64,000 nucleotides of DNA from Micromonospora terminaliae (GTDB lineage Bacteria; Actinomycetota; Actinomycetes; Mycobacteriales; Micromonosporaceae): NCBI RefSeq assembly GCF_009671205.1, contig NZ_CP045309.1:4030001-4094000 (forward strand), read 5' to 3'. Each line of letters begins with the position of its first letter. Position 1 is the first letter of the stretch. A program made the translations under genes and the position numbers. Below the pieces are notes generated by a model, which saw only the letters and a list, made by a program, of their open reading frames with translations, was not told the origin of the DNA and ran no database searches. Of the stretch, positions 7,851 to 60,878 are shown piece by piece.

Positions 7851-7875
7851 GGCCCTGATCCTGGCAGTCACCGGG

Positions 7876-8562
7876 TCAGTTGCCGAGACCCCGCCGCTCC
7901 AGCGCGAATGTCAAGCCGGCGACAGTCGCCCAGAGCGCCGCCGGGGCCAGCGCCAGGTACTGCAGCGGCACCGCCTGCGTGACCACCACCAGCAGCGTCA
8001 TCACGAGGCTGAACACCGCCAGCCACCGGCTCACCGACCGGCGGCGCAGCCCGGCCACCGCCACCGCGCCGGCGCTCAGCCCGGCACCGGCCCACACCCA
8101 CGGCAAGGTGCTGTAGAGGGCGGCGAGCGCGGCGACGGTGTCGGCGTCGGTCTCGGCCAGGTGCCGCAGGTCCCAGTACAGCTCGGTGGACACCCCGCCG
8201 CCGACGAGCAGCAGCGCCGCGGTGAGCAGCAGGCCGGCCGCCGCCACGTCGGGCAGCAGGCCGCCGGCCGGCTCGCGGGCGGCCAGCCGCCGCCGCAGCC
8301 CGGCCGCGAAGACCGCCAGACAGCCGGCGGCCAGCACGGCCAGGACCTGGAAGACCCAGAGGTACGCCTCGCGGCCGTCCATGGCGGCCACGTAGCGGGC
8401 GTTGTCCGCGAGGAGCGCGGTGTCCACCTCGGTCAGCGCCGGGCTGAACTGGAACAGGGCGATGCCGGTGAGGCCGGCGACGGCTCCGGCGACCGCCCAG
8501 CCCCGGCGGGGGCGGTCGGTGGCGGCCGGCACCGCGGTGCCGTCGAGCAGGGCGCTGGTCAT
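7876..8562 (-). CDS. Multi-pass membrane protein, function unknown
   Basis: 228 aa with about six hydrophobic helices: residues 23-42, 73-92, 112-130, 150-168, 178-196 and 200-218. The start is well supported by GGAGGA seven bases upstream of ATG 8562. The gene ends 25 bp before the histidine kinase start, so it is probably the first gene of that operon. That makes it a candidate accessory protein of the kinase. No family is recognised. Confidence 0.7.
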   Translation of the reverse strand: MTSALLDGTAVPAATDRPRRGWAVAGAVAGLTGIALFQFSPALTEVDTALLADNARYVAAMDGREAYLWVFQVLAVLAAGCLAVFAAGLRRRLAAREPAGGLLPDVAAAGLLLTAALLLVGGGVSTELYWDLRHLAETDADTVAALAALYSTLPWVWAGAGLSAGAVAVAGLRRRSVSRWLAVFSLVMTLLVVVTQAVPLQYLALAPAALWATVAGLTFALERRGLGN

Positions 8563-14200: not shown

Positions 14201-14819
14201 CTTCAAGAAGACCTTCGACACCTACCGGGCGGTACGAGGCCGGTTCCGGATCGTCGACGTGCCCGACATGCAGTACCTCATGATCGATGGCCGCGGCGAT
14301 CCCAACACGTCGCCCGCCTTCACCACGGCGGTCGAAGCGCTCTATCCGGTGGCGTACAAGCTGAAGTTCGCCAGCAAGGCGGACCTGGGGCGCGACTACG
14401 TCGTTCCGCCCCTGGAAGGTCTGTGGTGGGCCGAGGACATGGATTCCTTCACGGCGGCGCGGGACAAGTCGCGGTGGAACTGGACCCTGCTGCTCATGGT
14501 CCCGGACTGGACCGACCAGGCCATGTTCACCACCGCCGTCGCCCAGGCCGGGGCGAAGAACCGGTCAGCGGGTCTCGATGACGTCCGCCTGGAGACCCTG
14601 TCCGAGGGGCGGTGCGTGCAGACACTGCACGTCGGCTCCTTCGACGACGAGGCCGGCGTCCTCGCGCAGATGCATCACGAGTTCATCCCCGGACAGGGAC
14701 TCCGGATGGTCGGCCGTCACCACGAGATCTATCTCAGCGACTTCCGCAGGGTCGCCCCCGACAAGCAGCGCACCATTCTCCGGCAGCCCGTCACCACCGC
14801 CGCCGCGGTCGCCGGGTAG
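14184..14819 (+). CDS. GyrI-like small-molecule-binding protein
   Basis: 211 aa. DVPDMQYLMIDGRGDPNTSPAFTTAV and the later VQTLHVGSFDDEAGVLAQM and FIPGQGLRMVGRHHEIYLSD are characteristic of the GyrI-like family (DUF/COG4832 type). These bind hydrophobic ligands through a SHV fold. The gene overlaps the PadR gene, so the two are co-expressed. The ligand is unknown. Confidence 0.85.
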   Translation: MTNKIDFKKTFDTYRAVRGRFRIVDVPDMQYLMIDGRGDPNTSPAFTTAVEALYPVAYKLKFASKADLGRDYVVPPLEGLWWAEDMDSFTAARDKSRWNWTLLLMVPDWTDQAMFTTAVAQAGAKNRSAGLDDVRLETLSEGRCVQTLHVGSFDDEAGVLAQMHHEFIPGQGLRMVGRHHEIYLSDFRRVAPDKQRTILRQPVTTAAAVAG

Positions 14820-14871
14820 TCAGGCGCTGCGTGTGCAACGGGACTGGCAGCCTGGACCTACCATCCTGCGC

Positions 14872-15354
14872 ATGAACGCGTCGCGGGTCCGCCTGCTCAG
14901 CTGCCTCGTCATGCCGCTGCTGGCGGCCTGCGGCACCGACTCCTCCGGCGTGGTGACGGCGGCACCGGTGAGTTACCGCTGCTGCGAGGCGCAGGACATC
15001 GAAAGGCCGTACCAGCCTGGCCAGACCCTGACTGTGCACTGGACGGTCGAGTCCCCGGACGGGCCGGGCGGAGGCCACCCGCAGGTCGAGTTGACCGCGC
15101 GCCTGACGGGTCCGTTCGCCACCGTGAGCGACCTCAAGGCCGCGACAGAAGCCAACCCGAACGCGCCGGGGCCGGTCACCTTCGCGGCTGCACCGGTCCG
15201 GCCATCGGGCCTGCCCGACGAACGTCCCGTCAGTTCCGTCGTGATCGGTCCCGACGCCAGGCCGGGTTACTACAACCTGGTCACCTCCGTGGTCGATGGC
15301 GGCAACACGGCGAGCGGCGGCGGCAGCATCGTCCGGGTGGTGCCCCGGCCCTGA
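14872..15354 (+). CDS. Putative lipoprotein
   Basis: 160 aa with a type II signal peptide: MNASRVRLLSCLVMPLLAAC, the lipobox LLAAC giving Cys20 as the lipidated residue. The mature part is probably a single beta-rich domain (TLTVHWTVESPDGPGG...) and has no named family that I recognise. It is the last gene before the island's left junction. A -10-like TACCAT at 14859-14864 suggests a leaderless message. Confidence 0.7.
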   Translation: MNASRVRLLSCLVMPLLAACGTDSSGVVTAAPVSYRCCEAQDIERPYQPGQTLTVHWTVESPDGPGGGHPQVELTARLTGPFATVSDLKAATEANPNAPGPVTFAAAPVRPSGLPDERPVSSVVIGPDARPGYYNLVTSVVDGGNTASGGGSIVRVVPRP

Positions 15355-15487
15355 GCGTCCTGGCTCGCCTCACACTTCAGGCGAACGGGCTGGACCAGCT
15401 CTGCCCATGCCTCAGACAGGCGCCCAGGGCGTCGGCTCGGATCTCGACGCCGTCCCCCGGCACCATGCCTTGACCAGGATGTTTCCG

Positions 15488-15533
15488 TGGTGGGGCGGGC
15501 GGGGTTCGAACCCGCGACCGAGGGATTATGAGT
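15488..15533 (-). repeat. Left attachment site (displaced tRNA 3' half)
   Basis: 46 bp identical to 23740-23785, running on the minus strand from the anticodon loop to the encoded CCA. The 5' half of the tRNA is absent and the sequence diverges immediately after 15533, so this is not a functional tRNA. It marks where the original tRNA 3' end was displaced by integration. Confidence 0.9.
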
Positions 15534-15737
15534 GGCCCTCGCGACGGAGACTGCGGCCACTAGCTGCAACTACAGCCACAGTCGAGGCGACTCCATAGCA
15601 CTACAACCACTTGAACCGCTCTCGCTTCGCACCACAAGCGGCACCACGCGGTCTATGCCGATCAGTCGATCCCGTGAGAACCTGAACGCCTGATGTGATC
15701 GCACGACTACCTGCGGCTACCCTCGCTGGAGGCGCGC

Positions 15738-16577
15738 ATGGCGCAGATGTCGCTCTTCGGTTCAAGCGAAGCCGGTCCTGGCCCGAAGCCGGCTGACGAC
15801 CGCACCGTTCGGCTACAGCTCCTGATCACGGTGAAAGCTGCACCGAACCCCTCAGAGAAGTACGGCGAGACCGTCTGCGTAGCGGGGCTGCGGACGGACG
15901 TTTTGAGACCGACGTGGGTGCGCCTCTACCCGATCAACTTCCGGCATCTCGATAGCGACGAGGCGTTCAAGAAGTACGACATCATCTCTGTCGATGCCAA
16001 ACCGGCGCGGCAGGATCAGCGGCGCGAGAGCTGGAAGCCGATCATGGACAGGATCCAGAAGGAGCGCCATCTCGACGGTTGGAGGTCGCGACAGCCATTG
16101 CTTGACCCGGCTGTCGAAGACTCGATGTGTCGCCTCAACCGCGACGCTCAGGAGCGCGCTGACGCGCAGTCGCTGGCACTCGTGCGTCCCAAGGAGGTTC
16201 GCGGTCTCAAGGTCACGCCGCACCCTGGCTGGACGGCTGACGAGCAGCGCAAGATCGAAGCTTACGCGAGTCAGCCGGACCTCTTCAGCGGACGTAGTAG
16301 GTCCCCGCTTCAGGCGCCCCGCTTCAAGGCGGCGTACCACTACCGCTGCCACGAACGCGGGTGCAACGGACACAAGCAGCACGTCATTGACTGGGAGCTG
16401 GTAGCGCTACAACGCCGGCTCGTCGGCTACTCGGATGCTGCACTACAGGAAGCGCTTGAGGCCAAGTTCCTGGGAGAGATGTGCGCGGCAAACCGTGAGG
16501 TCGCCTTCTACGTTGGCAACCAGGCCAAGCGCGTTCACGTCTTCAGCGTGCTGGGCGTGTACTGGCCGAAGCGATAG
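15738..16577 (+). CDS. Conserved protein of unknown function, putative zinc binding
   Basis: 279 aa. It begins MAQMSLFGSSE and contains a conserved-looking block VCVAGLRTDVLRPTWVRLYP then INFRHLD and a RRESWKP motif, with a later CHERGCNGHKQH that could bind zinc. GGAGG precedes the ATG by six bases. The product is not recognised. Its 3' end overlaps the convergent DUF488 gene by 35 bp, and similar proteins are, to my memory, often found beside DUF488 genes. A DNA- or RNA-related defence role is only inference from the island context. Confidence 0.7.
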   Translation: MAQMSLFGSSEAGPGPKPADDRTVRLQLLITVKAAPNPSEKYGETVCVAGLRTDVLRPTWVRLYPINFRHLDSDEAFKKYDIISVDAKPARQDQRRESWKPIMDRIQKERHLDGWRSRQPLLDPAVEDSMCRLNRDAQERADAQSLALVRPKEVRGLKVTPHPGWTADEQRKIEAYASQPDLFSGRSRSPLQAPRFKAAYHYRCHERGCNGHKQHVIDWELVALQRRLVGYSDAALQEALEAKFLGEMCAANREVAFYVGNQAKRVHVFSVLGVYWPKR

Positions 16578-17022
16578 GCATTCGGTCTTCGAGTGCGCGC
16601 ATCACGACCTGGCGGTGACACCGGCTCTCATCCGCCTCGAAACAGAGCAGCGCCACCAGCTCGCGTTGCGCCGTCTGGGCGAGCACGTCGAGCGCGGCCA
16701 AAGATTCAGGGTGGTGCAGCCGAGAGGCGTAAACCGCCCGCGCGGATCGCAACTCCTCAGGGTTGCCACCGAACCCAGGGCGGTTTTCCTTTGGGTTACC
16801 AAGCTCCCGCCGGTGCTCGTAAGCGATGCCATGCGCTGCGAGTGCCCCACAGAGGGCCGACTTGCTGAAGCCACGCTTGCGAGAGATCGGAGTCATCCGG
16901 ACATCGACTAGGCGCGCGACGCCCATGTCTGCGAGACCGGTCACGAACTCATCAATGGAGCGGCCCTCGTAGCCGACACCCAGGATACCGGCCCGGTGAC
17001 TCACAGCTAAGGTGACGCTCAT
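16543..17022 (-). CDS. DUF488-family protein
   Basis: 159 aa. The opening ILGVGYEGRSIDEFV, then RLVDVRMTPISRKRGFSK and the C-terminal LLCFEADESRCHRQVV (C-x7-CHR) are the DUF488 signature. The family has a conserved cysteine/histidine cluster but no settled biochemical function. It is convergent with, and overlaps, the upstream plus-strand gene, an arrangement that would couple their expression through antisense transcription. Confidence 0.85.
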   Translation of the reverse strand: MSVTLAVSHRAGILGVGYEGRSIDEFVTGLADMGVARLVDVRMTPISRKRGFSKSALCGALAAHGIAYEHRRELGNPKENRPGFGGNPEELRSARAVYASRLHHPESLAALDVLAQTAQRELVALLCFEADESRCHRQVVMRALEDRMPIASASTRPAR

Positions 17023-17168
17023 CGGGACACCCTTTCATGACTCGCCTGCCAAGACCATCGAGACGGCCAAGAAATGTGCCGCCCTGCACAGCTCCGAACG
17101 GAAACGACCGGGGAAGGCAACCGGAACGATCGGATGGAGCTGGCTGTGAGGTGCGTGCCGCTACAGGG

Positions 17169-17218
17169 CGCTCCGCAGCGTCAATGCAGCCGCATCCAGG
17201 TCGACGGCGGACCACCGA
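17169..17218 (-). pseudogene. Relic of a second tyrosine integrase
   Basis: On the minus strand this 50-bp segment reads RWSAVDLDAAALTLRSA, matching RWSAVDLDAAVLTLRSA in the intact integrase (DNA at about 22870-22919, roughly 84% identical). A stop codon follows at once, and neither flank continues the homology. It is therefore a decayed remnant of an integrase, implying an earlier or composite insertion at this locus. Confidence 0.75.
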
Positions 17219-17228
17219 GTCTGATGGG

Positions 17229-18272
17229 CTAGTGGCTGTAGCGCCGAGCACCCGACTTAGGGAGCCGATACCGGTAGCGCGTCGGCTTCAAGGATGCCTG
17301 AGCTGGCACCCACGACTCCCACACTCGGACCCGACCACCGGACGTCTCAACGGCGCCGTCCGGCAACCGCCGCCAGTCGATGTGGTCTACGACAATGAGA
17401 TGGGTGTCAGTCGCAGAGGCATGCTCAACCTCATTGAACGTGAGCTCCACGGCGTCAGCATCGCCGGACGACCCCTTGACCTCGATGTGAAGCTCACGCT
17501 GCTCAGTCACAGCGAGCACGTCGTAGGACTTCGTGCTGCCCACATCTTTCACGTCGTAGCCGCGGCTGCTGTAGTGCCGCAGTGCCCAGTCGACGGCGTG
17601 GCGTTCGATTGCCAATCGAACCACCTCGTCACGTAGGTATCCCGCACCCCGTCGCTTCCGAGCCGCGACCGCGAGCTCGGATGATGCTGGGCGTTGCCTC
17701 GGGATTCGACCCTGGTCTACCTGAGGCACCTGCTTCAGCTCCGGAACCGCTGAGATGACGGCCGCAGGCAACTTCACCAAGTAGCCCTGCGCCGCTCGCA
17801 CGGGACGCTTGTCAGAGAAGGCGAACGGAAAGTAGAGGCTTCCCGGGTGGCGTATCTCTAGCTGCTCCTTGATCCTCCGAAGCTTGCCTTCGGCCTTTCG
17901 GAAGGCATCCTGAGTAACAGGGCGCGCCAGGGCCGTGTAGCCAGTGAGGGCGTAGCGCCATGAGGGCTCGGGCCCCGCAAGCGGGCGGGTTCGACCGTAG
18001 GTGCCCTGAGACGCCCAAAGGATCTCGTCTTCCTCCGGCCCCTCGGCAGCCGTCGAGTAACCGACGATCCCCGGGGCGCCGAGAAGTGACTTATGCCAGT
18101 GAAGGACTACGTCTCCCGGCTGCACTGCGGTGACCAGAGCGTAAGACCAGTACTCGCGCCCGGCGTCGTCAACTTGTGGGGCATGAAGGTCGGCACCGAG
18201 ATCGGTGCGGTCGGTGATTTCCATCCAGTAGCGCTCGGCCGGATCACTGTGCCACCACTCATTGATCGCCAC
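17229..18272 (-). CDS. EVE-like plus DUF3883 (PD-(D/E)XK) putative restriction nuclease
   Basis: 347 aa. The N-terminal part (about residues 1-170) has an EVE/PUA-like pattern, with QPGDVVLHWHKSLLG and IVGYSTAAEG, a fold known to read modified bases. The C-terminal DUF3883 domain contains RGYDVKDVGSTKSYDVLAV then ELHIEVKGSSG, so Asp251, Glu264 and Lys266 form a plausible PD-(D/E)XK site. In combination this is the layout of candidate modification-dependent (type IV-like) restriction enzymes. Catalysis and base specificity are inferred. Start at ATG 18272. Confidence 0.75.
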   Translation of the reverse strand: MAINEWWHSDPAERYWMEITDRTDLGADLHAPQVDDAGREYWSYALVTAVQPGDVVLHWHKSLLGAPGIVGYSTAAEGPEEDEILWASQGTYGRTRPLAGPEPSWRYALTGYTALARPVTQDAFRKAEGKLRRIKEQLEIRHPGSLYFPFAFSDKRPVRAAQGYLVKLPAAVISAVPELKQVPQVDQGRIPRQRPASSELAVAARKRRGAGYLRDEVVRLAIERHAVDWALRHYSSRGYDVKDVGSTKSYDVLAVTEQRELHIEVKGSSGDADAVELTFNEVEHASATDTHLIVVDHIDWRRLPDGAVETSGGRVRVWESWVPAQASLKPTRYRYRLPKSGARRYSH

Positions 18273-18379
18273 GGGACATGTCTACCGGACCGGCCGCGCA
18301 GACGTCGTCCCCGACCGCGACTGTCCCCGTCATCGCCTAGCAGTGACAGTGGGCGTGCGCTCGGTTTACGGTCGCATAC

Positions 18380-18631
18380 ATGACCGAAGAGACGCTCATC
18401 GCACTGCTCAACTACGACTGGTTGGTCCGCAACCGCGGACTCGACGCCGTAGCGCTGGATTGGGACTCAAACACCCTGGTCCACGGCGACGGCGGGACAA
18501 CGATGGAGACCCTGTGCGACCCCGGCTTCACCCCTGCAACTAGCGGCGACTGGGCGCAGCGGTCGGCAGATGCCGCCCAAGAGTCGACACCCTGGGCGGC
18601 GCCAGGGGGACCGAGCGGTTACAGCGCTTAG
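18380..18631 (+). CDS. Small hypothetical protein
   Basis: 83 aa (MTEETLIALLNYDWLVRNRG...). A promoter-like GTGACA (18343-18348) and TACGGT (18367-18372) are 18 bp apart and end seven bases before the ATG, suggesting a leaderless gene. The C-terminal third is low complexity and may be out of frame with an ancestral sequence. No family is recognised. Confidence 0.45.
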   Translation: MTEETLIALLNYDWLVRNRGLDAVALDWDSNTLVHGDGGTTMETLCDPGFTPATSGDWAQRSADAAQESTPWAAPGGPSGYSA

Positions 18632-18758
18632 GCGAAGGGGCAGGCGCGGCATTTCAACAAGCGCGTGCGACCGCGAGTGCCGTCTAGCCAAAATCTCGGT
18701 GTGCCGGCGCTTGCGGTGGCATAGGCCAATTCGGCTCAGGGGCTCCTAGTGGGCGGAT

Positions 18759-19031
18759 CTACGCGAGCCGGTAGCGGTGGTCGGCGCTCGTTGTAGGAGG
18801 GGCTGAACCATCTCCGTCCAGGGCATGAAGGCCGGATGCCTTGGCGTCCTCGGCGTATCCGACGTCGTGAAGCCACGCTGCGGCTACGAGGGTCCCGCCG
18901 TCCTGAGGCTCGCACAGTCCCGCAGCAGCCTTGGCCTTAGCCGCTACGGACTGAACGCGGGCCCACCGCCGAGGCAGCGCGACAGCGAGGGCATCACGAG
19001 CCAGGCGCTCCGCATCGGTCACTAGGTCCAC
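18759..19031 (-). pseudogene. Truncated HD-domain hydrolase
   Basis: The 90-aa frame begins like a full HD-domain phosphohydrolase (MDLVTDAERLARDALAVALP) and contains VAAAWLHDVGYAEDA, with the catalytic HD pair. It then loses similarity after GLHALDGD and stops. Complete relatives are about twice as long. Residues for metal binding in the second half are missing, so it is probably non-functional debris. Confidence 0.65.
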
Positions 19032-19099
19032 GTGGTCAGGGTACCGACCGCGAGATCGCGGGTCGCTCTACTGCAGGCGCACAACCTATCCTGGCCAAG

Positions 19100-20053
19100 G
19101 TGAGCACACTCTCCTCCGCGCAGCTACTCAAGTCGTCCCAAGAGTGGGGGCGCCGGGCGTTCGTTTCCTACTTGACGAACGACCGCTCAGCTCTGCTCAT
19201 TGACGCCGCAGTGTCACTCGAACATCTTTCCAAGGCATACCTCTATGGCCAACACCCAGCGCTACTGATTGACCTCGGCAAGAAGGACTTCGATTCCCTT
19301 CTACACCTATGCAGTCTATCCAAGCATGCGCGACGACCACGCATGGCCACAATCAGCGGAACGGAAGCCTTTAATAGGGTCCAAATACTGCTACCTAACA
19401 TGAAAACCTCGGCAGCATCGATCAAGACCCTAATCGAAGTGCGGGATGGAACGATACATGCCGGCCAACTTCCGCCGGGCGATATCACCTCAACTTTTGC
19501 TTCCTTCGTCAGAGCGAGCGCCGAGATATGCGAGGCGCTAGGCATAGATCTTGAAGATCATTGGGCTGAGCACAAAGCACTTGCCGACTCATTGGCTTCG
19601 GATTCGATCACCAAAATCGAACAGAGAGTCTCGGAGCTGATAGCCGCGGCTAAGCTCCGCTTCAAGGCCCTGACCGATAGCATTCCCCAGGGCGAACAGG
19701 CAGGAATCTTCGAAGCGATGAGGGCAGCAATTGAAGGCGCTCTGCTTGGCGACGAGGTGGAAGAGTCACCCTGCCCTAGCTGTTCGCAGGCCGCATATTG
19801 CTCCGGCAAGTACGAGGTTGACTATGACGTCGATGTTGACGTTGATGACGGGATCGCTGTCGCCTACCCGGCAAACACCCTGTTGTTCTACCCCGCCATG
19901 TTGACGTGCGGCGTGTGCAAGCTTTTCTTGAAGGACAGGGATGAACTGAAGGCGGCCGGCGTCAACCAGACGTGGGAGATTGACGACCCGGAACTGCTCG
20001 GCGAATACATGGACAGAGACCAAGGCCTGATGCCTTCACCGACCGAGGTGTAA
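19100..20053 (+). CDS. HEPN-like protein with C-terminal zinc ribbon
   Basis: 317 aa, lower in GC than the chromosome. Residues 1-150 are helical, and EVRDGTIHAG carries an R-x4-H motif (Arg115, His120), the catalytic signature of HEPN RNases. A linker follows, then CPSC (225-228) and CGVC (270-273), which can form a zinc ribbon around an acidic insert DYDVDVDVDD. HEPN proteins are common toxins and anti-phage RNases. The family is inferred from the motif rather than overall recognition. Start is GTG 19100 with TATCCT at 19087-19092. Confidence 0.65.
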   Translation: MSTLSSAQLLKSSQEWGRRAFVSYLTNDRSALLIDAAVSLEHLSKAYLYGQHPALLIDLGKKDFDSLLHLCSLSKHARRPRMATISGTEAFNRVQILLPNMKTSAASIKTLIEVRDGTIHAGQLPPGDITSTFASFVRASAEICEALGIDLEDHWAEHKALADSLASDSITKIEQRVSELIAAAKLRFKALTDSIPQGEQAGIFEAMRAAIEGALLGDEVEESPCPSCSQAAYCSGKYEVDYDVDVDVDDGIAVAYPANTLLFYPAMLTCGVCKLFLKDRDELKAAGVNQTWEIDDPELLGEYMDRDQGLMPSPTEV

Positions 20054-20112
20054 TCAGCGAATGCATCGAATCGAACGGCGTCTTGGGCGGGGCCAGGACT
20101 GAATGTACAAGC

Positions 20113-20148
20113 GTGAACAGCAGGTCATTGCAATGACCTGCTGTTCAC
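20113..20148. terminator. 36-bp perfect palindrome, bidirectional terminator candidate
   Basis: The sequence from GTGAACAGCAGGTCATTG to its exact complement is perfectly self-complementary. It lies in the 163-bp gap between the convergent HEPN-like gene and the OLD-like ATPase gene, where it could terminate both. There is no long T tract. Confidence 0.65.
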
Positions 20149-20216
20149 CTTGCGCCAAATGCTGCTCGCCTGGCCAGTTCAGCGCCCGAGCCCTGATGCT
20201 CGAGTGTCAGTGAGCT

Positions 20217-22178
20217 CTAGGAAAGTGTGGAATTCAGGAGACTGAAGAGCCTCTCGAATCGGGCAACCGTGTCGCTCTTGACCTCAGCGAAGAACTCCTC
20301 CCGCCGTTGAGTCAACATATGTGCCGGCAGAGCATGATCGAACTTGCCTCGCGCAATCTCGATGCGGCGAAGGATTGGCTCCTTGGTCTGGGGCAAGTCA
20401 TCGGTCTTGATTCGAGCATCAAAAGCCCAGTTGTAAAGCCTAAGATAGTCTTCAGCTTCGAACAAATCTTCGATGTCCGCGTTGGCCGGAAGATCTTGGC
20501 TTGCCTGAGCGCACGTCACAATTGCGCTTTCTGCGACACCATTGCTGCGGGCCGCCGCTTTCACACGCTCCACCTTGCTGCTCGTCCTAGCCCCATCGAT
20601 GAGCGCAGACACCTTCAGCCGGCGCCCCAGGAGGGCAACGAACGCTGGCATATTGTCGGCTCCCCCAACTGGAATCATGGCAAGGCGTGGATCGAGGCCA
20701 GCCTTGCCCTGAAGTTCGAGGTGCTCAGTAAACCGCTGGAGATAGACGAAGTCACTGCTACCTTCAAGCGCGAGATGATGCCCCGCGCCCAAGAATAGGT
20801 GCTGGCTGATGGAGTAACCGAGTGCCGACTCTACCGGCAGCACAGTTTCCCGATCAGCCGACAAGTCGATCCGGCCGATCTTCACACCCTGGTTGGGATC
20901 CCTGCGGGTCGCACGGTCATGTACCGCTCTGAGCTTCTCGTAGCGACCCGGGTCAACCATGAATTGAGAATGGGTGGTATACAGCGTCTGCTTCGACGCC
21001 CCCAGTTCCTCGAAGACGAACCGCACAAAGTCCTTCTGAGCATCGCCATGCAGGCTCGTGCCCGGCTCGTCGAGCAGGACGATGATGGGCTCCTCTGACG
21101 ATTGGTACTCGCTGAAAGCAGCAAAAAAGGAGAAGAACCATTGGAAGCCTGTCGACCTGGTCGAGAAATTCGTCTCAACGCCGCCGTGCCGACCGTCACG
21201 AATTTCAATTTTCAAAAATCTGTGCGTGGTTTGACCGCCGTTCGGATGGTTCCTAACGGCAACGTTGTCAGTGTCGAACACCACTTCCAGGTCGGGATTC
21301 TGTTTCCAGTATTCAAACACACGACTGCTTAATTCGGCACTCGCGGCCTGAAGCTCCGCCTTTCGACTGTCATAGTCCGCATCCATGAAGTCCGCCGGCT
21401 CCTCGCCGGCATGCGCCAACAGCGCTACAACAGTCCTCTCGGCCTCTGTGAGCTCCTCCTTATCCTCAACCTTCGCAGCGAGTTCCGTGAGATTTGCCTC
21501 ACCCGGCAAGATATTGTATGACGAAAAATAGAAGAACTTGGGCAGCCGGGCAGCCAGAGCATTGGCAGCCTCTTGACCAATCACCGTGATGCCCCGCAGA
21601 TAGTCCAGAGACCCGATCGCCGTGGCGAACGCAGTGAGAGCTTTGGCTCGCAACGGCGATTCTTCTTTAACTTCCTTAGAAAGTTCTTTCGCGCGAGACT
21701 TGATCTTAGAAATCGAAGTGCCTTCGAGGAGTTCGGGAAGATCCTCCTCTGCGACCGAACTCTCGTTGGCTGCCGCGCGTACCAACTTGTCGAGATCGCA
21801 CCTCAACCAAATCACGAGCCCGTTTGCATAGGTGCGGGCAGCGAAGCAAACGGTACCCTCAGGCGGAGCCGCTGGGAGAAGGTCGGAAATCTCGGTGAGA
21901 TCTGCCTCTTCTAGCTCAAACTCTGCGACGATCGGACGAAGCTCACTCAAGTCTTCCTGGCGTCGATCACGCGCTAGCCGCCAGCGCGGATACTCCGTGG
22001 TAACGTCGAACTGGCGCCCGACTCCGTTGGCAGGGTTCAGGCGATGCATCGCCTTCAAGACCGTCGTTTTCCCGGCCTCATTCTTGCCCACGAGCCCGGT
22101 CACGTCGTCTTCGATCTCGATGCGTTGGGCATCAACGATGTTCTTGAACTTCTGCACGGTTACTGCCCGCAGTCTCAA
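20217..22178 (-). CDS. OLD-like ATP-dependent nuclease (AAA ATPase plus TOPRIM)
   Basis: About 653 aa. The N-terminal ABC-type ATPase has Walker A GKNEAGKTT near residue 31, a signature-like STRSTGFQWFF, Walker B IIVLLDEPGTSLHG and the H-loop TTHSQF. The C-terminal TOPRIM-like half has LALEGSSDFVYL (Glu about 472), SALIDGAR and NADIEDLFE. This is the OLD-family architecture used in several phage-defence systems (for example GajA-type nucleases), but no GajB-like helicase partner is adjacent. I prefer a TTG start at 22178 preceded by AGGGGG, giving LRLRAVTVQKFKNI; the open frame extends to a GTG at 22208. Confidence 0.82.
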   Translation of the reverse strand: MRLRAVTVQKFKNIVDAQRIEIEDDVTGLVGKNEAGKTTVLKAMHRLNPANGVGRQFDVTTEYPRWRLARDRRQEDLSELRPIVAEFELEEADLTEISDLLPAAPPEGTVCFAARTYANGLVIWLRCDLDKLVRAAANESSVAEEDLPELLEGTSISKIKSRAKELSKEVKEESPLRAKALTAFATAIGSLDYLRGITVIGQEAANALAARLPKFFYFSSYNILPGEANLTELAAKVEDKEELTEAERTVVALLAHAGEEPADFMDADYDSRKAELQAASAELSSRVFEYWKQNPDLEVVFDTDNVAVRNHPNGGQTTHRFLKIEIRDGRHGGVETNFSTRSTGFQWFFSFFAAFSEYQSSEEPIIVLLDEPGTSLHGDAQKDFVRFVFEELGASKQTLYTTHSQFMVDPGRYEKLRAVHDRATRRDPNQGVKIGRIDLSADRETVLPVESALGYSISQHLFLGAGHHLALEGSSDFVYLQRFTEHLELQGKAGLDPRLAMIPVGGADNMPAFVALLGRRLKVSALIDGARTSSKVERVKAAARSNGVAESAIVTCAQASQDLPANADIEDLFEAEDYLRLYNWAFDARIKTDDLPQTKEPILRRIEIARGKFDHALPAHMLTQRREEFFAEVKSDTVARFERLFSLLNSTLS

Positions 22179-22411
22179 CCTACGCCCCCTCAAGCACATC
22201 CGGATCACGACCGCCTATAGCCCGGCTAAATCCTGAACCTTTGCCCGCTCCTACTGATCTATACGCTGGTCGGGCTGACTGTACGCCGGCAGGAGTCCCA
22301 GCACGACCCCGCGACATCGCTGCTCGCTAACAGAATCCAGCCGATTCGCGCCCTTCCCCGGGCACCATAGCGTTGTGGACCGACAGTCCCTGTCCATCAG
22401 GCTTTCCGACG

Positions 22412-23671
22412 TCAGCGCGGTCGGCTTGGCATGCGGGCCGCAAGGGTAGTTGCAGCCCGTTGGTCCGACTCGGACAGCCAGGCGGCGTACACCCGCAGGG
22501 TGGTTGCGCCTCCCCCGCCGTGGCCGAGTCGGCCAGCAACGGTCCGAACGTCGACACCTGCTGCGATTAGCTCCGTGGCCGAGTGGTGCCGAAGGGCGTG
22601 AAGGTTCGTTGCGATGCCGAGTCGCGCCGCCATCCGGCTAAATCGCTGGGTGGCCGTGTCCGGCGTCAACGGCGTATCGCCGTCAGGATCCGGCGAGAAT
22701 ACGTAGCCGTCACCCCGCAGCGACAACGCGAGGGCCGACGCGCGATCCTCGGAGCGCGCAAGCTGGTCGCGCAGGACCTCTACCGTCTCCGCGTCCAGGG
22801 CCACGCGCCGCTGCTGGTGCGTCTTGGTGTCCTTTTCCCGCAGTTTCCCCGCGTCGTCCACGTAGAGAGCGCTCCGCAACGTCAGCACGGCGGCGTCTAG
22901 GTCGACGGCGGACCACCGCAGAGCGCAAAGCTCACTCCGTCGCGCCCCCGTCGTCATGGCCAGCCACACGAACGCACCCCAGTCAGGCTCCTTCCACGCC
23001 TGAGTGACCAGTAGGGCCGCTTCCGGCGCCGTTGGCGGGTGCGGGTTGGGCTGAGGCATCCCGGGCTTCTCCGCCTGATCGGCCGGGTTGACGGCGATCC
23101 AGCGCCACCGAACGGCGCGGTTCAGCGCGCCGGACAGGATCCAGTGGATCTGCCGGATCGATGCTGGGGCGAGCGGCTTGCACTCGTGCGGCCGGCACTT
23201 GTCGGTGCAGTCATGCGGCCCCGCCTTCCGGTGCTCGATGGCCTTTCGGGCGCCTCCACAGTGATCCCGGCACTTCCGCAGCACGGCGTAGAAGGATTCC
23301 AGCGTCTCAGCGTCCAGCCGGCCCACCGGCAGCTTGCCGAGCAACGGCCGTACGTGCTTGTTCAGCTTCTTGACGTACCCCTGCCGGGTCGACGTCTCCA
23401 CGTCGAGCACTTCAAGCCACCGGTCAAGCAGCTGGTCGACGGTGGCACGGGTGCGCGGGTTGCGCCGGTCGTCCACCTGGGCGAGGAACCGCGTACGCGC
23501 CTTCTCGGCTTCCTTGCGGGCGGTCGGGCCGGCCGGGATGGTCTCGGTCAGGTAGTGGCGCTTCTTCGTGATGGGGTCGATGCCCGCGTAGACCTTCACC
23601 CTGAGTGAGCCGCTCGGCAGTTCCTCGATCTCGCCTCGTTGGCGCTTCGCGCGCCCGTTCGCCGTCGCCAT
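22412..23671 (-). CDS. int: Tyrosine recombinase (phage-type integrase)
   Basis: 419 aa. N-terminal arm- and core-binding domains (to about residue 215) carry a Cys/His insertion (CRDHCGG, DCTDKCRPHEC). The catalytic domain has the first Arg in TTGARRSELCALRW, a Lys in KTHQQRRV, HALRHHSATELIAAG (H-x-x-R) and GHGGGGATTLRVYAAW with the nucleophilic Tyr. It sits 68 bp from the tRNA that bears the attachment site, so it drives integration of the island. Confidence 0.92.
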   Translation of the reverse strand: MATANGRAKRQRGEIEELPSGSLRVKVYAGIDPITKKRHYLTETIPAGPTARKEAEKARTRFLAQVDDRRNPRTRATVDQLLDRWLEVLDVETSTRQGYVKKLNKHVRPLLGKLPVGRLDAETLESFYAVLRKCRDHCGGARKAIEHRKAGPHDCTDKCRPHECKPLAPASIRQIHWILSGALNRAVRWRWIAVNPADQAEKPGMPQPNPHPPTAPEAALLVTQAWKEPDWGAFVWLAMTTGARRSELCALRWSAVDLDAAVLTLRSALYVDDAGKLREKDTKTHQQRRVALDAETVEVLRDQLARSEDRASALALSLRGDGYVFSPDPDGDTPLTPDTATQRFSRMAARLGIATNLHALRHHSATELIAAGVDVRTVAGRLGHGGGGATTLRVYAAWLSESDQRAATTLAARMPSRPR

Positions 23672-23739
23672 GGGGCCGACCGTAGCGCGCTCGCGCCACG
23701 AGTAGCACCACGGGAAGATCCGGGATCTAGCATTTGCGC

Positions 23740-23785
23740 TGGTGGGGCGGGCGGGGTTCGAACCCGCGACCGAGGGATTATGAGT
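23740..23785 (-). repeat. Right attachment site within the tRNA
   Basis: This 46-bp copy is the 3' half of the intact tRNA (anticodon loop through CCA), supplied by the island so that the tRNA gene is restored after insertion. It is identical to 15488-15533. Confidence 0.9.
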
Positions 23786-23816
23786 CCCCTGCTCTAACCC
23801 GCTGAGCTACCGCCCC
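23740..23816 (-). tRNA. tRNA with CAU anticodon (probably elongator tRNA-Met)
   Basis: 77 nt including an encoded CCA. Acceptor arms GGGGCGG and CCGCCCC pair, the D arm is GCTC-GAGC, the anticodon stem encloses CTCATAA and the T arm is GCGGG-TTCGAAC-CCCGC. CAU is the anticodon. The alternative that it is the lysidine-modified tRNA-Ile2 cannot be excluded by eye. It is the integration site of the island. Confidence 0.9.
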
Positions 23817-23969
23817 GCTACCGCGCCGGATCGTAACCCGCTCAACGGATCACCGGCCATCACCCGACGGGCCAGCATCAAGATCCGACCGGCACGATGG
23901 GCAACGCGAGGATAACAGCGCGCAGCGGACCCAACGGCCGCGCAGGCAGAGGCCGGATGGGTGCGGCGC

Positions 23970-25211
23970 TCAGCCGTCGCCCCGCAGCTCCGCGAGCACC
24001 GCACCAGCCGCCCGCCACCCGCTGGCGAGAGCCCCCTGGATGGACGGGCTGTCCCGGTGGTCGCCCGCCACGAAGAGCCCGTCGCCGAGCGTGACCGGCT
24101 TGCGCAGCCGGCCCTGTGGCGGCGGCGCGGCGGGAAGCGCGTCCGGGACCGACACGGTGGCGAGGTGTGTCCAGTCGGCGGTGGGGCGCCCGTAGAGGCG
24201 GTCCAGCTCGCGGCGGATCAGCGGCTCGGGCGGGGCCTGCGGGCCGACCACCGAGGTGGCCACGAGGTGCTTCCCGGCCGGCGCGTAGGTGGGTGCCGCG
24301 TTGCTGAGCACCACCGTGTTGGCGACCAGTTCCCGCCGATCCCCGTCGAGCAGCAGGATCGGCTCGGCCAGCGGCGGGGTGTCGGTGCTGTGGTAGTAGG
24401 TCGTGTAGCTGTGCATGCGTACCCGCTGGAGCCGGGGCAGCAGCGTGGCCGCCGCGGGCGGGTCGGCGGCGACCACGACGGCGCGGCAGGCGATCTCGCC
24501 GGCCGGGGTGCGGACCCGGCCGGGCGCGATCTCGGTGACCGGGGTGTCCAGGTCGATCAGTTCGGCGGGCAGCGGGGCGGCGACGGCCGCGGGCAGCGCG
24601 GCCATCCCGCGGGCGGGCAGCCCGATCCGGCCGCGGGCGAACGCGCGCAGGATGACGGCCAGCACGTGGCTGGAGGTGGCCAGCTCGCGGTCGAGCAGCA
24701 CCCCGGAGAGGAACGGCCGGAGCACTTCCTCGACGAACGCCGGGGAGAGCCCGGCGCGGCGCAGCGCCTCCTCGGCGGTGGTCTCGGGCGCGTTGAGCAG
24801 CCGGCCCACCGGCAGGGTGGCGCAGCCGCCGGCGAGCGCGGCGAAGCGCAGCCGGTCGACCAGCGAGCCGACGCCGGCGGCCAGCGTGCCGGGCGCACCG
24901 GCGGGGTCGCGCAGCGGGTTGACCAGGCGTTCCAGCCGGCCGCCGCGGCGGACCAGCACCCCGGCCGTGAACCAGCCGAGGTCGAGGGCGCGGAGGTCGA
25001 CCAGGCCGCCGAGCCTCGGGTACGCCGTGTTGAGCACCTGGAAGCCCCGGTCCAGCAGGTAGCCGTCGACCTCGTCGGTGGCGACCCGGCCACCGAGCCG
25101 GTCGGCGGCCTCGATCAGCCGCCAGGGCACGCCGGCCCGGTGCAGCCGGCGGGCGGCGGCGAGGCCGGCCAGGCCGCCACCGACGACGACCACGTCGGTG
25201 TCAGCGGGCAT
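23970..25211 (-). CDS. FAD-dependent amine-oxidase/phytoene-desaturase-like oxidoreductase
   Basis: 413 aa. N-terminal dinucleotide motif VVVVGGGLAGLAAARRL, followed by the GG motif DRLGGRVATDEV, puts it in the amine oxidase/phytoene dehydrogenase superfamily. The C-terminal FAD motif GLFVAGDHRDSPSIQGALASG is also present. It overlaps the MMPL transporter gene by 11 bp and is downstream of it, so they form an operon. The substrate is unknown. Confidence 0.85.
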   Translation of the reverse strand: MPADTDVVVVGGGLAGLAAARRLHRAGVPWRLIEAADRLGGRVATDEVDGYLLDRGFQVLNTAYPRLGGLVDLRALDLGWFTAGVLVRRGGRLERLVNPLRDPAGAPGTLAAGVGSLVDRLRFAALAGGCATLPVGRLLNAPETTAEEALRRAGLSPAFVEEVLRPFLSGVLLDRELATSSHVLAVILRAFARGRIGLPARGMAALPAAVAAPLPAELIDLDTPVTEIAPGRVRTPAGEIACRAVVVAADPPAAATLLPRLQRVRMHSYTTYYHSTDTPPLAEPILLLDGDRRELVANTVVLSNAAPTYAPAGKHLVATSVVGPQAPPEPLIRRELDRLYGRPTADWTHLATVSVPDALPAAPPPQGRLRKPVTLGDGLFVAGDHRDSPSIQGALASGWRAAGAVLAELRGDG

Positions 25212-27321
25212 GCTCCACCTCCGCCCCGGCCCGGTCGCCGTTCCGGTTGTTCCGCGACAGCCCGCCGGGCCACCAGATTTTCGGCCCGATGTCGTACGCG
25301 AGCGCGGGCACCAGCAGCGAGCGGACCACGATGGTGTCGAGCAGCACCCCGGCGGCGACGGCCACGCCCAGCTCGACGAGCACCACGAGCGGCAGCACGG
25401 CGAGCGCGGAGAAGGTGGCGGCGAGCACGATGCCGGCGGAGGTGATCACGCCGCCGGTGACGGCCAGGCCGGTGAGGACCCCGGCCCGGGTGCCGCGCCG
25501 CACCGACTCCTCGCGGACCCGGCTCATCAGGAAGATGTTGTAGTCGATGCCGAGCGCCACCAGGAAGACGAACGCGAACAGCGGGAACGACTGGTCGACC
25601 CCGGGGAAGTCGAGGATGTGCCGGAAGATCAGGGCGCAGAGGCCGAGCGTCGCCAGGAACGACAGCACCACGGTGGCGATGAGCAGCACCGGCGCGAGCA
25701 GCGCCCGCAGCAGCACCGCCAGGATGACGGCGATGACCAGCAGCACCACCGGGATGATGACGTTGCGATCCCGGGTGGAGGCGTCGGCGGTGTCCACGTT
25801 GATGGCCGTGAAGCCGCCGACCACGGCGTCCGCGCCGGGCACCCGGTGCACCGCCACGCGCAGCTCGCGGATGGTCCGCTCGGCGCCGTTGCTGTCCGGG
25901 GGGTCGGCGAGGGTGGCCTGCAACTGCACCCGCCCGTCGACCACCTCGGGCGACCCGGTCCCTCCCGGACGGCTGAACGGCCGGACCGAGGACACCCCCG
26001 GCACGCCCTGCGCCACCCGGGCGACCTGCTCGGCGGTGCCCTGGCTCGTGAAGATGGTGGCCGGGCTGCCGGTGCCGGCCGGGTAGTGGCGGGCGATCAC
26101 ATCCTGCCCGGCCACCGAGTCGGTGCTCTTCGTGAACAGGTCGGACTGGCCGAGGGTGGTGGCGCCGAGCTGGGTCACCCCGAGGGCGAGCGCGGCCAGG
26201 ACCACCGCGGTGACGATCCAGACGGTACGGGCGCGGCGCGCCACGAAGCCCGCGATCCGCCCCCAGATGCCGTGCTCGGTGCGCGGGTCGGCCTGGTCGA
26301 ACCGGGGTCGCCGCGGCCAGAACGCCCAGCGTCCGCCGAGGAGCAGCAGGGCGGGGAGGAAGGTCAGCATCACGAGCAGGGTGGCGGCGATGCCGACGGC
26401 GCTCACCGGGCCGAGCGCGCGGTTGGAGTTGAGGCTGGACAGCAACAGGCAGAGCAGGCTCACGATGACGGTGGCGCCGGACGCGATGATCGCCGGGGCG
26501 GCGCCCCGCCAGGCCGCGCGCATGGCGTCCCAGGGCCGCTCGTGCCGGTGCAGTTCCTCCCGGTAGCGGGCGATGAGCAGCAGCGCGTAGTCGGTGCCGG
26601 CGCCGAAGACGAGGACGGTGAGGATGCCCTGGGCCTGGCCGTTGAGCTTGATGACGTCGTTCTTCGCGAGGACGTAGACGAAGAGCGAGGCCAGCGAGTA
26701 CGACATCCCGGCGGCGAGCAGCGGGAAGACCCAGAGCACCGGGCTGCGGTAGACGATCAGCAGGATGACGAGCACCACGACGAGGGTGACCAGCAGCAGC
26801 GGCCCGTCGATGGCGGTGAACACCTCGATCAGGTCGGCGAGGAGGCCGGCGGGGCCGGCCACGTCCACGGTCAGGCCGTCCCGGTCGCTGCCGGTGATCT
26901 CCCGCAGCCGGTCGACCACCGCGCCGATCTGTTCGCCCTCGGCGGCGTCGATCGGGACGACCACCTGCACGGCCTGCCGGTCCTGGCTGACGATCGGCGG
27001 CGGCAGGGGGCCGACGACGCCCGGCAACTCGGCGAAGCGGGCCGCGTCGGCTTGGACCCGCTGCTGGTCGGCGGGGGTGATGCCGGAGGTGCGCTCATAG
27101 ACGACGAGCGCCGGGGTGGTCTCCCGGTCCACGAAGCCGGCGGCGAGGTCCTGCGCACGGGTGGCCTCGGCGTCGGCGGGCAGGAAGGCGGCGTTGTCGT
27201 TGGTGGCGACGTCGCCGAGCTTTCCCGAGTAGGGCCCGGCGAGGCCGCCGACCACCAGCCAGCCCAGCACCACGACGACCGCGATCAGCGTCGCGGTCCA
27301 GCGGCTCCGCCCTCCGGCCAT
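25201..27321 (-). CDS. MMPL/RND-family transporter
   Basis: 706 aa with two repeats of a membrane helix, a large external loop and five clustered helices, as in MmpL-type proton-driven exporters. The internal SAVGIAATLLVMLTFLPALL and GIDYNIFLMSRVREE regions are typical. ATG 27321 has GGGTGGGG upstream; the frame's extension to 27384 is rejected. Such transporters export lipids or hydrophobic metabolites. The coupled FAD oxidoreductase suggests a modified lipid or polyene substrate, an inference only. Confidence 0.87.
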   Translation of the reverse strand: MAGGRSRWTATLIAVVVVLGWLVVGGLAGPYSGKLGDVATNDNAAFLPADAEATRAQDLAAGFVDRETTPALVVYERTSGITPADQQRVQADAARFAELPGVVGPLPPPIVSQDRQAVQVVVPIDAAEGEQIGAVVDRLREITGSDRDGLTVDVAGPAGLLADLIEVFTAIDGPLLLVTLVVVLVILLIVYRSPVLWVFPLLAAGMSYSLASLFVYVLAKNDVIKLNGQAQGILTVLVFGAGTDYALLLIARYREELHRHERPWDAMRAAWRGAAPAIIASGATVIVSLLCLLLSSLNSNRALGPVSAVGIAATLLVMLTFLPALLLLGGRWAFWPRRPRFDQADPRTEHGIWGRIAGFVARRARTVWIVTAVVLAALALGVTQLGATTLGQSDLFTKSTDSVAGQDVIARHYPAGTGSPATIFTSQGTAEQVARVAQGVPGVSSVRPFSRPGGTGSPEVVDGRVQLQATLADPPDSNGAERTIRELRVAVHRVPGADAVVGGFTAINVDTADASTRDRNVIIPVVLLVIAVILAVLLRALLAPVLLIATVVLSFLATLGLCALIFRHILDFPGVDQSFPLFAFVFLVALGIDYNIFLMSRVREESVRRGTRAGVLTGLAVTGGVITSAGIVLAATFSALAVLPLVVLVELGVAVAAGVLLDTIVVRSLLVPALAYDIGPKIWWPGGLSRNNRNGDRAGAEVEHAR

Positions 27322-60819: not shown

Positions 60820-60850
60820 GCCGGGCCCGGACACGCCGTCCGGGCCCGGC
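60820..60850 (+). terminator. Hairpin after the TAXI gene
   Basis: Perfect 13-bp stem GCCGGGCCCGGAC / GTCCGGGCCCGGC with a five-base loop at 60820-60832 and 60838-60850. It lies inside the operon and could attenuate read-through into the kinase, keeping the binding protein more abundant. Confidence 0.6.
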
Positions 60851-60878
60851 ACCCCCGACAACGACCCGGGAGACCCCC

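Follow-up and report, generated by a model that had tools for sequence, protein, structure and literature searches.

A probable decayed actinomycete integrative and conjugative element with defence-like cargo at a tRNA-Met gene of Micromonospora terminaliae

The 64,000-nucleotide (nt) window analysed here, from contig NZ_CP045309.1 of Micromonospora terminaliae, contains an island of approximately 8.3 kb that is bounded by a perfect 46-bp repeat at a tRNA-Met(CAU) gene and encodes an integrase together with several defence-like proteins. Our analysis suggests that it is what remains of an actinomycete integrative and conjugative element (AICE). Its features are listed below in window coordinates (att, attachment site; aa, amino acids; ORF, open reading frame); G and L numbers denote the genomes and loci of our survey.

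15488–15533, no strand assigned: distal att copy, 46 bp, the 3′ half of tRNA-Met (repeat and genome search)
15738–16577, plus strand: M19B, 279 aa, PADLOC model PDC-M19B (9.8e-44), with a modelled N-terminal OB fold
16543–17022, minus strand: DUF488 protein (PDC-M19A), 159 aa (Pfam PF04343 5.7e-30; DUF488-N3a 9.3e-9; PADLOC 6.7e-29)
17162–17217, no strand assigned: 56-bp integrase shard of the same family as the island integrase, 82% identical to 22863–22918 and 87.5% to the G321 integrase
17229–18272, minus strand: EVE-NOV_C (DUF3883) protein, 347 aa, with D251 and E264-V-K266 (Pfam PF13020 4.8e-8)
18380–18631, plus strand: ORF of 83 aa, no family match in Pfam and PADLOC scans
18735–18816, no strand assigned: 82 bp of AICE sequence, located next to the M19 pair in G016 (83% identity, DNA alignment)
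18759–19031, minus strand: truncated AICE HD-domain gene, codons 1–73 kept, 55% aa identity to the intact G321 homologue, which matches Pfam HD
19100–20053, plus strand: solitary HEPN-like protein with R115-x4-H120 and C-terminal CPxC and CxxC motifs (alignment of homologues)
20113–20148, no strand assigned: perfect 36-bp palindrome separating the HEPN gene from the convergent OLD gene (repeat search)
20217–22208, minus strand: OLD-like protein, 663 aa, ABC ATPase (AAA_15) with a TOPRIM-like C terminus (Pfam 2.2e-19; PADLOC AriA/Old/GajA)
22412–23671, minus strand: tyrosine integrase, 419 aa, catalytic motifs present (Pfam 7.5e-21)
23740–23816, minus strand: intact tRNA-Met(CAU) with the proximal att copy at 23740–23785 (tRNA and repeat search)

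The two repeat copies are identical, with starts 8,252 bp apart, and the right-hand copy is the 3′ half of the intact tRNA gene. With up to one mismatch allowed, a 31-nt core of the repeat has exactly two occurrences in the 6.7-Mb genome, and a reversed-pattern control of this core occurs nowhere in it; the pair is therefore not a product of chance. No third copy of the 46-bp repeat lies in 14500–25500. GC content is 0.622 within the island against 0.737 outside, where the lowest value among 196 overlapping windows of island length is 0.710. An earlier reading of this DNA from its letters (hereafter, the initial annotation) had proposed these borders, the lower GC of the interior and the presence of integrase, OLD-like, DUF3883 and DUF488 genes; the repeats and composition agree with it, and Pfam matches all four genes. 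The integrase reading frame is open, and the island has the combination of tyrosine integrase and att repeats at a tRNA 3′ end that is expected of a functional AICE.

Joining the two window flanks and aligning this junction to relatives revealed the site without its insert, as the initial annotation had called for. The predicted junction aligns unbroken in G009 (291 bp, 83.8%), G022 (295 bp, 83.7%), G021 (259 bp, 78.8%) and G338 (231 bp, 83.6%), and the island interior has no match at E ≤ 1e-3 in these four loci. Left of the repeat, only approximately 40–65 bp of the query align, and in G009, G022 and G021 the aligned stretch is the C-terminal tail (17–35 codons) of another integrase type, that of G337, G033 and G023. 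A plain ‘empty site’ reading was dropped, because three of the four island-free sites carry this tail; G009, G022 and G021 lack the window island and yet retain traces of an older element. One frame of the left flank of the island in the window gives GVGSDLDAV, which by eye matches the foreign-integrase tail, although tblastn did not report it there. G341 has the tail (80 codons, 80%) outside its far att, and G032, with a junction alignment of 226 bp, retains a longer piece of the other integrase and a further 27-bp repeat copy. The island thus went in next to what was left of an older element. Longer synteny to the left is found in G033 (1388 bp, 92.6%) and in G021 (505 bp, 76.6%, 1.8 kb from the tRNA).

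More than one kind of element targets this tRNA. In G337, two att copies spaced by 10.6 kb enclose an element with the other integrase and an FtsK_SpoIIIE protein (Pfam 6.1e-12), and the same tRNA hosts elements in G357 (8.9 kb) and G033 (approximately 4.3 kb). In the window (15426–15487), L032, L033, L038, L041 and L163, a tail of the foreign integrase type flanks the tRNA or sits beyond the far att.

Relatives of the island at this tRNA resemble AICEs. The integrase search covered 160 genomes of the genus, of which 29 match at E ≤ 1e-80; at least six of these have it at this tRNA (the genome of the window itself, G000, and G321, G016, G374, G002 and G341). G321, G016 and G374 have an open integrase that is 92–94% identical at the same tRNA; in the core-less G002 and G341 it is frameshifted, in pieces that are 79–91% identical. 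Both att ends are present in five of the six (G000, G002, G341, G321 and, over two contigs, G016). The G321 element measures 17.7 kb from att to att and has AICE-type genes that Pfam assigns to HD, NUDIX, HTH_17 (AlpA-like), Prim-Pol and DUF3631; the AlpA-like protein is likely to be an excisionase, and a regulator has helix-turn-helix (HTH) matches below threshold only. The HD, NUDIX, regulator and AlpA-like proteins have counterparts in G016 at 65–91% identity. In several published AICEs, genes for an HD hydrolase, a Nudix protein and an XRE protein are clustered, and att-tra-rep-int-att is given as the typical order (PMC3218068).

Both ends of the island align with these relatives. The integrase–tRNA end matches G321 (89% identity, 1389 bp), whereas the match of the att–M19 end, att included, is to G016 (90.6% identity, 1636 bp). 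In the interior, the codons of the truncated HD gene stop at 18813 and the 82-bp flank known from G016 extends to 18816, a four-base overlap. Because HD codons and flank meet at 18813–18816, the lost core evidently stretched from HD codon 73 to the sequence that borders the far-end cargo. Ten AICE-type proteins were searched in the window, and the HD fragment is their sole match within the island. The G321 Prim-Pol and DUF3631, the replication genes expected of an AICE, have no match in the window, and the only match to a TraB/FtsK-type gene is a 52-aa stretch at E 0.008 (60842–60997), far outside the island. The core was lost elsewhere too: in G002, HD codon 101 is joined near DUF3631 codon 254, G341 retains HD pieces up to codon 132, and G374 keeps only the integrase. 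As their end points differ, we read the losses in the window, G002 and G341 as three independent events.

One part of the island departs from G016, in which the M19 pair directly adjoins the 82-bp flank. In the window, 17125–18734 (1.6 kb, with EVE-NOV_C, the 83-aa ORF and the integrase shard) lies between them. Two successive elements in the same tRNA could have left this arrangement, an older one contributing the M19 part and a younger one the stretch from EVE-NOV_C to the integrase, with the middle att lost. The shard lies where the two parts meet, AICEs are known to accrete at tRNA sites (PMC9513070), relatives retain traces of an older element with another integrase type at this site, and G008 has an M19 pair beside the tRNA without the window-type integrase. 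However, the single AICE-like element of G016 combines far-end M19 with the same 82-bp flank, so that one element explains both ends, and the repeat lacks a third copy; we consider such an accretion unlikely.

Taken together, these observations favour the reading of the island as a decayed AICE that lost its core and kept its integrase and defence-like cargo, to which we assign a probability of roughly 0.8. The marks of an AICE remnant, namely att repeats, integrase, AICE-derived sequence and AICE-like relatives at the site, are all present. The island is not a DAICE in the sense of PMC9513070, a term for elements that retain traB but have lost int or rep: here int is present and traB has no match. 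It fits the decayed remnants of the same paper instead. Under this reading, an integrase inserted the parent into the 3′ end of tRNA-Met(CAU); the tRNA beside int was restored from the incoming DNA and a 46-bp copy was left at the far end, as the anatomy of the island and the island-free relatives show. The parent may have resembled the 17.7-kb G321 element or that of G016, with the order att, far cargo slot, replication and transfer core, AlpA-like gene, regulator, Nudix, HD, near cargo slot, int and tRNA. A deletion, whose junction is plain from the comparison, then removed the core between HD codon 73 and the far-slot flank, and the 1.6-kb EVE-NOV_C piece, whose position is likewise plain, would have arrived between M19 and that flank.

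With no detectable AlpA, replication or transfer gene, the island is not expected to excise or move alone. It might instead be a minimal element that is still mobile, either through its own integrase or through a helper AICE. The open integrase with catalytic motifs and the identical att copies are compatible with this, and mobilisation of decayed AICEs by helpers has been proposed (PMC9513070). The G321 AlpA has no match in the window, however, and its sole match in the genome is weak (E 2.9e-6, at C1:4977251); moreover, the integrase is frameshifted in the other core-less elements, G002 and G341. Continued mobility is thus distinctly improbable.

Elements at this tRNA have two cargo slots, one beside the integrase and one beside the far att, whose contents differ between genomes:

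Near-integrase slot, window: HEPN and OLD-like
Near-integrase slot, G321: KwaB-like (Pfam 1.9e-10)
Near-integrase slot, G341: AriA-like ATPase (PADLOC 5.2e-25) and a 279-aa neighbour without family
Near-integrase slot, G016: proteins of 311 aa and 192 aa without match (the 192-aa protein by Pfam scan only)
Near-integrase slot, G002: proteins of 327 aa and 789 aa without match
Far-att slot, window and G016: M19 pair
Far-att slot, G002: cll (4e-25), PD-Lambda-2_C/Beta_protein (1.6e-42; Pfam 2e-70) and one protein without match
Far-att slot, G321: the same cargo as G002, by 85% identical DNA over 3.5 kb
Far-att slot, G341: 986-aa protein with a sub-threshold NB-ARC match

The initial annotation had proposed a tRNA insertion with defence-like cargo, and the repeats, the island-free sites and these defence-model matches all support it. 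The cargo most likely acts against incoming DNA. A different role, in element maintenance or host housekeeping such as addiction, DNA repair or transfer control, is suggested by the OB-fold and DUF488 proteins, which could be repair proteins, by the decay of many AICE cargo genes (PMC9513070) and by the neighbours of the G374 integrase, which by eye are not defence genes. We regard this role as improbable: defence models match genes in the slots of sister elements, and relatives of M19B occur on 23 plasmid records and five viral contigs from several lineages.

Several points weigh against a decayed AICE with defence cargo. The transfer genes of G321 and G016 are weakly recognised: a 615-aa protein of G321 has plasmid TraB as its best NCBIfam model (1.8e-9, below cut-off) and matches PDB FtsK chains at 0.0028, and a 739-aa protein of G016 matches TraB (1.7e-5) and FtsK_SpoIIIE (6.2e-4), both below cut-offs. 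Another protein of the G321 core, of 603 aa, is without any match, and the gene order of G016 is partly inferred, as its element is split over two contigs. For G374, whose integrase at the tRNA is 92% identical, no distal att and no nearby defence gene (by eye) were found; defence cargo is therefore not universal but present in five of the six genomes at the site. Defence models have no match to the window HEPN protein or 83-aa ORF and only a weak partial match to EVE-NOV_C, and none to the 311-aa protein of G016, the 327-, 789- and 259-aa proteins of G002 or the 279- and 986-aa proteins of G341. TOPRIM domains carry a DxD motif; the OLD-like protein reads D-G-A, without the second acidic residue, as do three homologues (L209–L211), and with the motif incomplete its nuclease activity is uncertain. 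Finally, the structure comparison of M19B is a good test for residues 14–122 only.

Within that range, M19B models as an OB fold resembling single-stranded (ss) DNA-binding proteins. Its gene and that of DUF488 lie tail-to-tail with a 35-nt 3′ overlap (16543–16577). The initial annotation had seen an unrecognised gene beside DUF488 in a set without a name; the gene is indeed there, and M19A and M19B side by side constitute the PADLOC candidate PDC-M19, so that the pair does carry a candidate name. The closest named homologues of the window M19B are from Micromonospora. The two genes stay side by side in Actinobacteria, Proteobacteria and Cyanobacteria. A tail-to-tail arrangement in which their ends overlap is frequent and occurs in many lineages; other lineages have both genes in the same direction. 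The island as a set was not found in place without the repeats, whereas the M19 pair alone does occur elsewhere without them. The DuOB family (PF22557) reaches at best 0.0019 on the M19B family (a Sulfolobus member, 18.7 bits against a Pfam cut-off of 27) and matches one of the 50 members of M19B alignment A3 at 0.021. Sequence matches of DUF488 in the PDB are at chance level. Literature searches returned nothing for PDC-M19, its mechanism included, nor for DUF488 together with DUF4326; among the listed matches on DUF488, phage defence is absent from titles and abstract openings. A 2023 paper on the rhodanese-phosphatase superfamily reportedly predicts DNA-end processing by DUF488-type enzymes. 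In our proposal, the OB-fold protein would hold single strands or DNA ends, on which the DUF488 enzyme would act. Our analysis adds to PDC-M19 the survey of overlap and orientation and the predicted OB fold.

The partners of M19B vary. On the Sulfolobales plasmids pBEU9E1 and pSOG2 (L197 3870–4361; L198 3846–4352), a conserved gene lies 3′ of the M19B relative; its product has no Pfam DUF488 match and by eye shows a PD-(D/E)XK-like pattern. Its identification as DUF488 was dropped, as Pfam and the sequences show no such domain, and because this partner is a different protein, exchangeable M19B partners are suggested. A separate M19B clade without DUF488 lies near tRNA-Lys(CTT) in five of the six Micromonospora loci scanned (L082, L083, L085, L088, L090). 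Two Streptomyces plasmids (L188 4858–5550; L190 3206–3892) encode a fusion in which DUF488 follows a Cro/C1-type HTH, and on a Pseudomonas plasmid (L199 4440–5738) the M19 pair adjoins a protein with a HEPN/Toprim N-terminal domain (Pfam 3e-54).

The EVE-NOV_C protein has at least 295 homologues at E ≤ 1e-6 among 8000 candidates scored. Pfam recognises its NOV_C domain, as the initial annotation’s ‘EVE-like/DUF3883’ implied, and finds no direct EVE match in the window protein; the EVE assignment comes from homologues, PF01878 (EVE) and PF13020 (NOV_C) occurring together in 7 of 120 among the matches listed. PDB sequence matches are at chance level. Combinations of EVE with nucleases have been predicted to be modification-dependent restriction enzymes (PMC7641849). 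The window protein may share the pairing of EVE reader and nuclease with EVE-HNH and other EVE restriction enzymes (PMC7641849; PMC7897488), but its nuclease is NOV_C, PD-(D/E)XK-like rather than HNH. It may thus read modified bases and cut in the manner of type IV restriction.

The HEPN-like protein belongs to a rare family with 14 members at E ≤ 1e-6, the window’s own included, among 5.8 billion proteins, in a search that requires shared five-residue words. R115 and H120 (the RX4H motif), C225, C228, C270 and C273 are invariant in all 14. The HEPN-like reading of the initial annotation rests on this RX4H motif rather than on a Pfam match or a fold, and the profile finds PDB sequences at chance level. 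The Rx4-6H motif that defines the HEPN superfamily (PMC3710099) is present as R115/H120. An order-wide search found the protein in four of 249 genomes, own included, and phage records gave no match. Actinomadura sp. OS1-43 carries three tandem paralogues (L168 9001–12739). The seven named HEPN loci (one partial) have neither a common neighbour nor an OLD homologue; the lack of a common neighbour fits a solitary sensor-effector, possibly an RNase in suicide-type defence. Tha, a lone HEPN anti-phage RNase of Staphylococcus aureus prophages (PMC11087260), is a tested precedent and is alike in being one protein of approximately 300 aa with RX4H; in the window protein RX4H lies in the N-terminal half, followed by a C-terminal zinc motif. 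We found no tested function in the literature for the lone HEPN-zinc protein or the M19 pair.

The OLD-like protein matches the OLD structure 6p74 at 4.4e-6 over residues 362–439, the PADLOC AriA model at 2.5e-19 and the AriAB fusion model at 5.8e-8; PARIS systems have either AriA and AriB as separate proteins or the AriAB fusion. GajB, the partner expected in Gabija, has no match in the other eight of the nine ORFs scanned (for the OLD-like protein, among the best 25 of 94 matches). Class 1 OLD nucleases (P2 Old, TsOLD 6P74; PMC10568477) are single genes with an ABC ATPase and a TOPRIM-like C terminus, a type to which the window protein may belong, but its DxD motif is incomplete. It could combine an ATPase sensor with a TOPRIM nuclease. 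Relatives at E ≤ 1e-40 occur in three genomes besides its own, of 246. The 71 nt around the palindrome that separates this gene from the HEPN gene fold at −34 kcal/mol (z −5.4), a probable two-way terminator.

A convergent HEPN–OLD two-gene system was rejected, given the seven HEPN loci without an OLD homologue and the OLD relatives in only three genomes of 246 besides its own. The initial annotation had gone further, treating the whole compact set, all of whose products could touch nucleic acids, as one system. That the cargo is a single new multi-gene defence system acting as a unit is highly improbable. In the seven named loci, HEPN homologues keep no constant company, and a second window module appears in none of the first 20 HEPN, M19B and EVE-NOV_C neighbourhoods, nor in the other M19 loci searched. 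As the modules do not travel together, we reject this view; they recur apart, on an island that descends from an AICE-like element without its core.

As a type, the decayed AICE with cargo is already known, and the island is a well-documented case. It has in common with the decayed remnants of PMC9513070 the att repeats, an AICE ancestry visible through relatives, the loss of the core and the cargo left behind; it differs in its open integrase, in cargo that is nearly all defence-like and in that a single tRNA within one genus shows three core losses, each ending at different points. AICE cargo is known to include restriction-modification and AIPR abortive-infection genes (PMC9513070). Deoxydinucleases borne on AICEs near phage-defence systems (PMC11706625) are likewise candidate immunity genes within AICEs, but form another gene family, and the available account describes no core-less remnants. 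P2/P4 antiviral hotspots (PMC9122126) share the principle of a mobile-element slot with exchangeable defence modules; here the carrier is an AICE remnant rather than a phage or satellite, and there are two slots. A literature search on AICEs and defence islands returned no mention of AICE among the matches listed.

A single Micromonospora tRNA thus allows comparison of AICE-like elements, core-less remnants and island-free sites. The KwaB-like, PD-Lambda-2 and AriA-like models in the same slots as the candidate genes lend guilt-by-association support to the rare lone HEPN family and the M19 pair, the modules worth testing, and the OB fold is a structural lead for M19B. More speculatively, AICEs at this tRNA may repeatedly become immobile immune cassettes by losing the transfer core with both defence slots kept, M19 may be a new type of immunity that senses DNA ends or single strands, its OB-fold protein recognising exposed DNA for a partner to act on (DUF488 in bacteria, the PD-(D/E)XK-like protein on the Sulfolobales plasmids), and its tail-to-tail overlap may provide antisense control. 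We hold this extension to be doubtful; if true, the site collects untested defence genes. Outside the island, 6001–8000 of the window shows a strong AT skew of 0.22–0.46 at approximately 78% GC.

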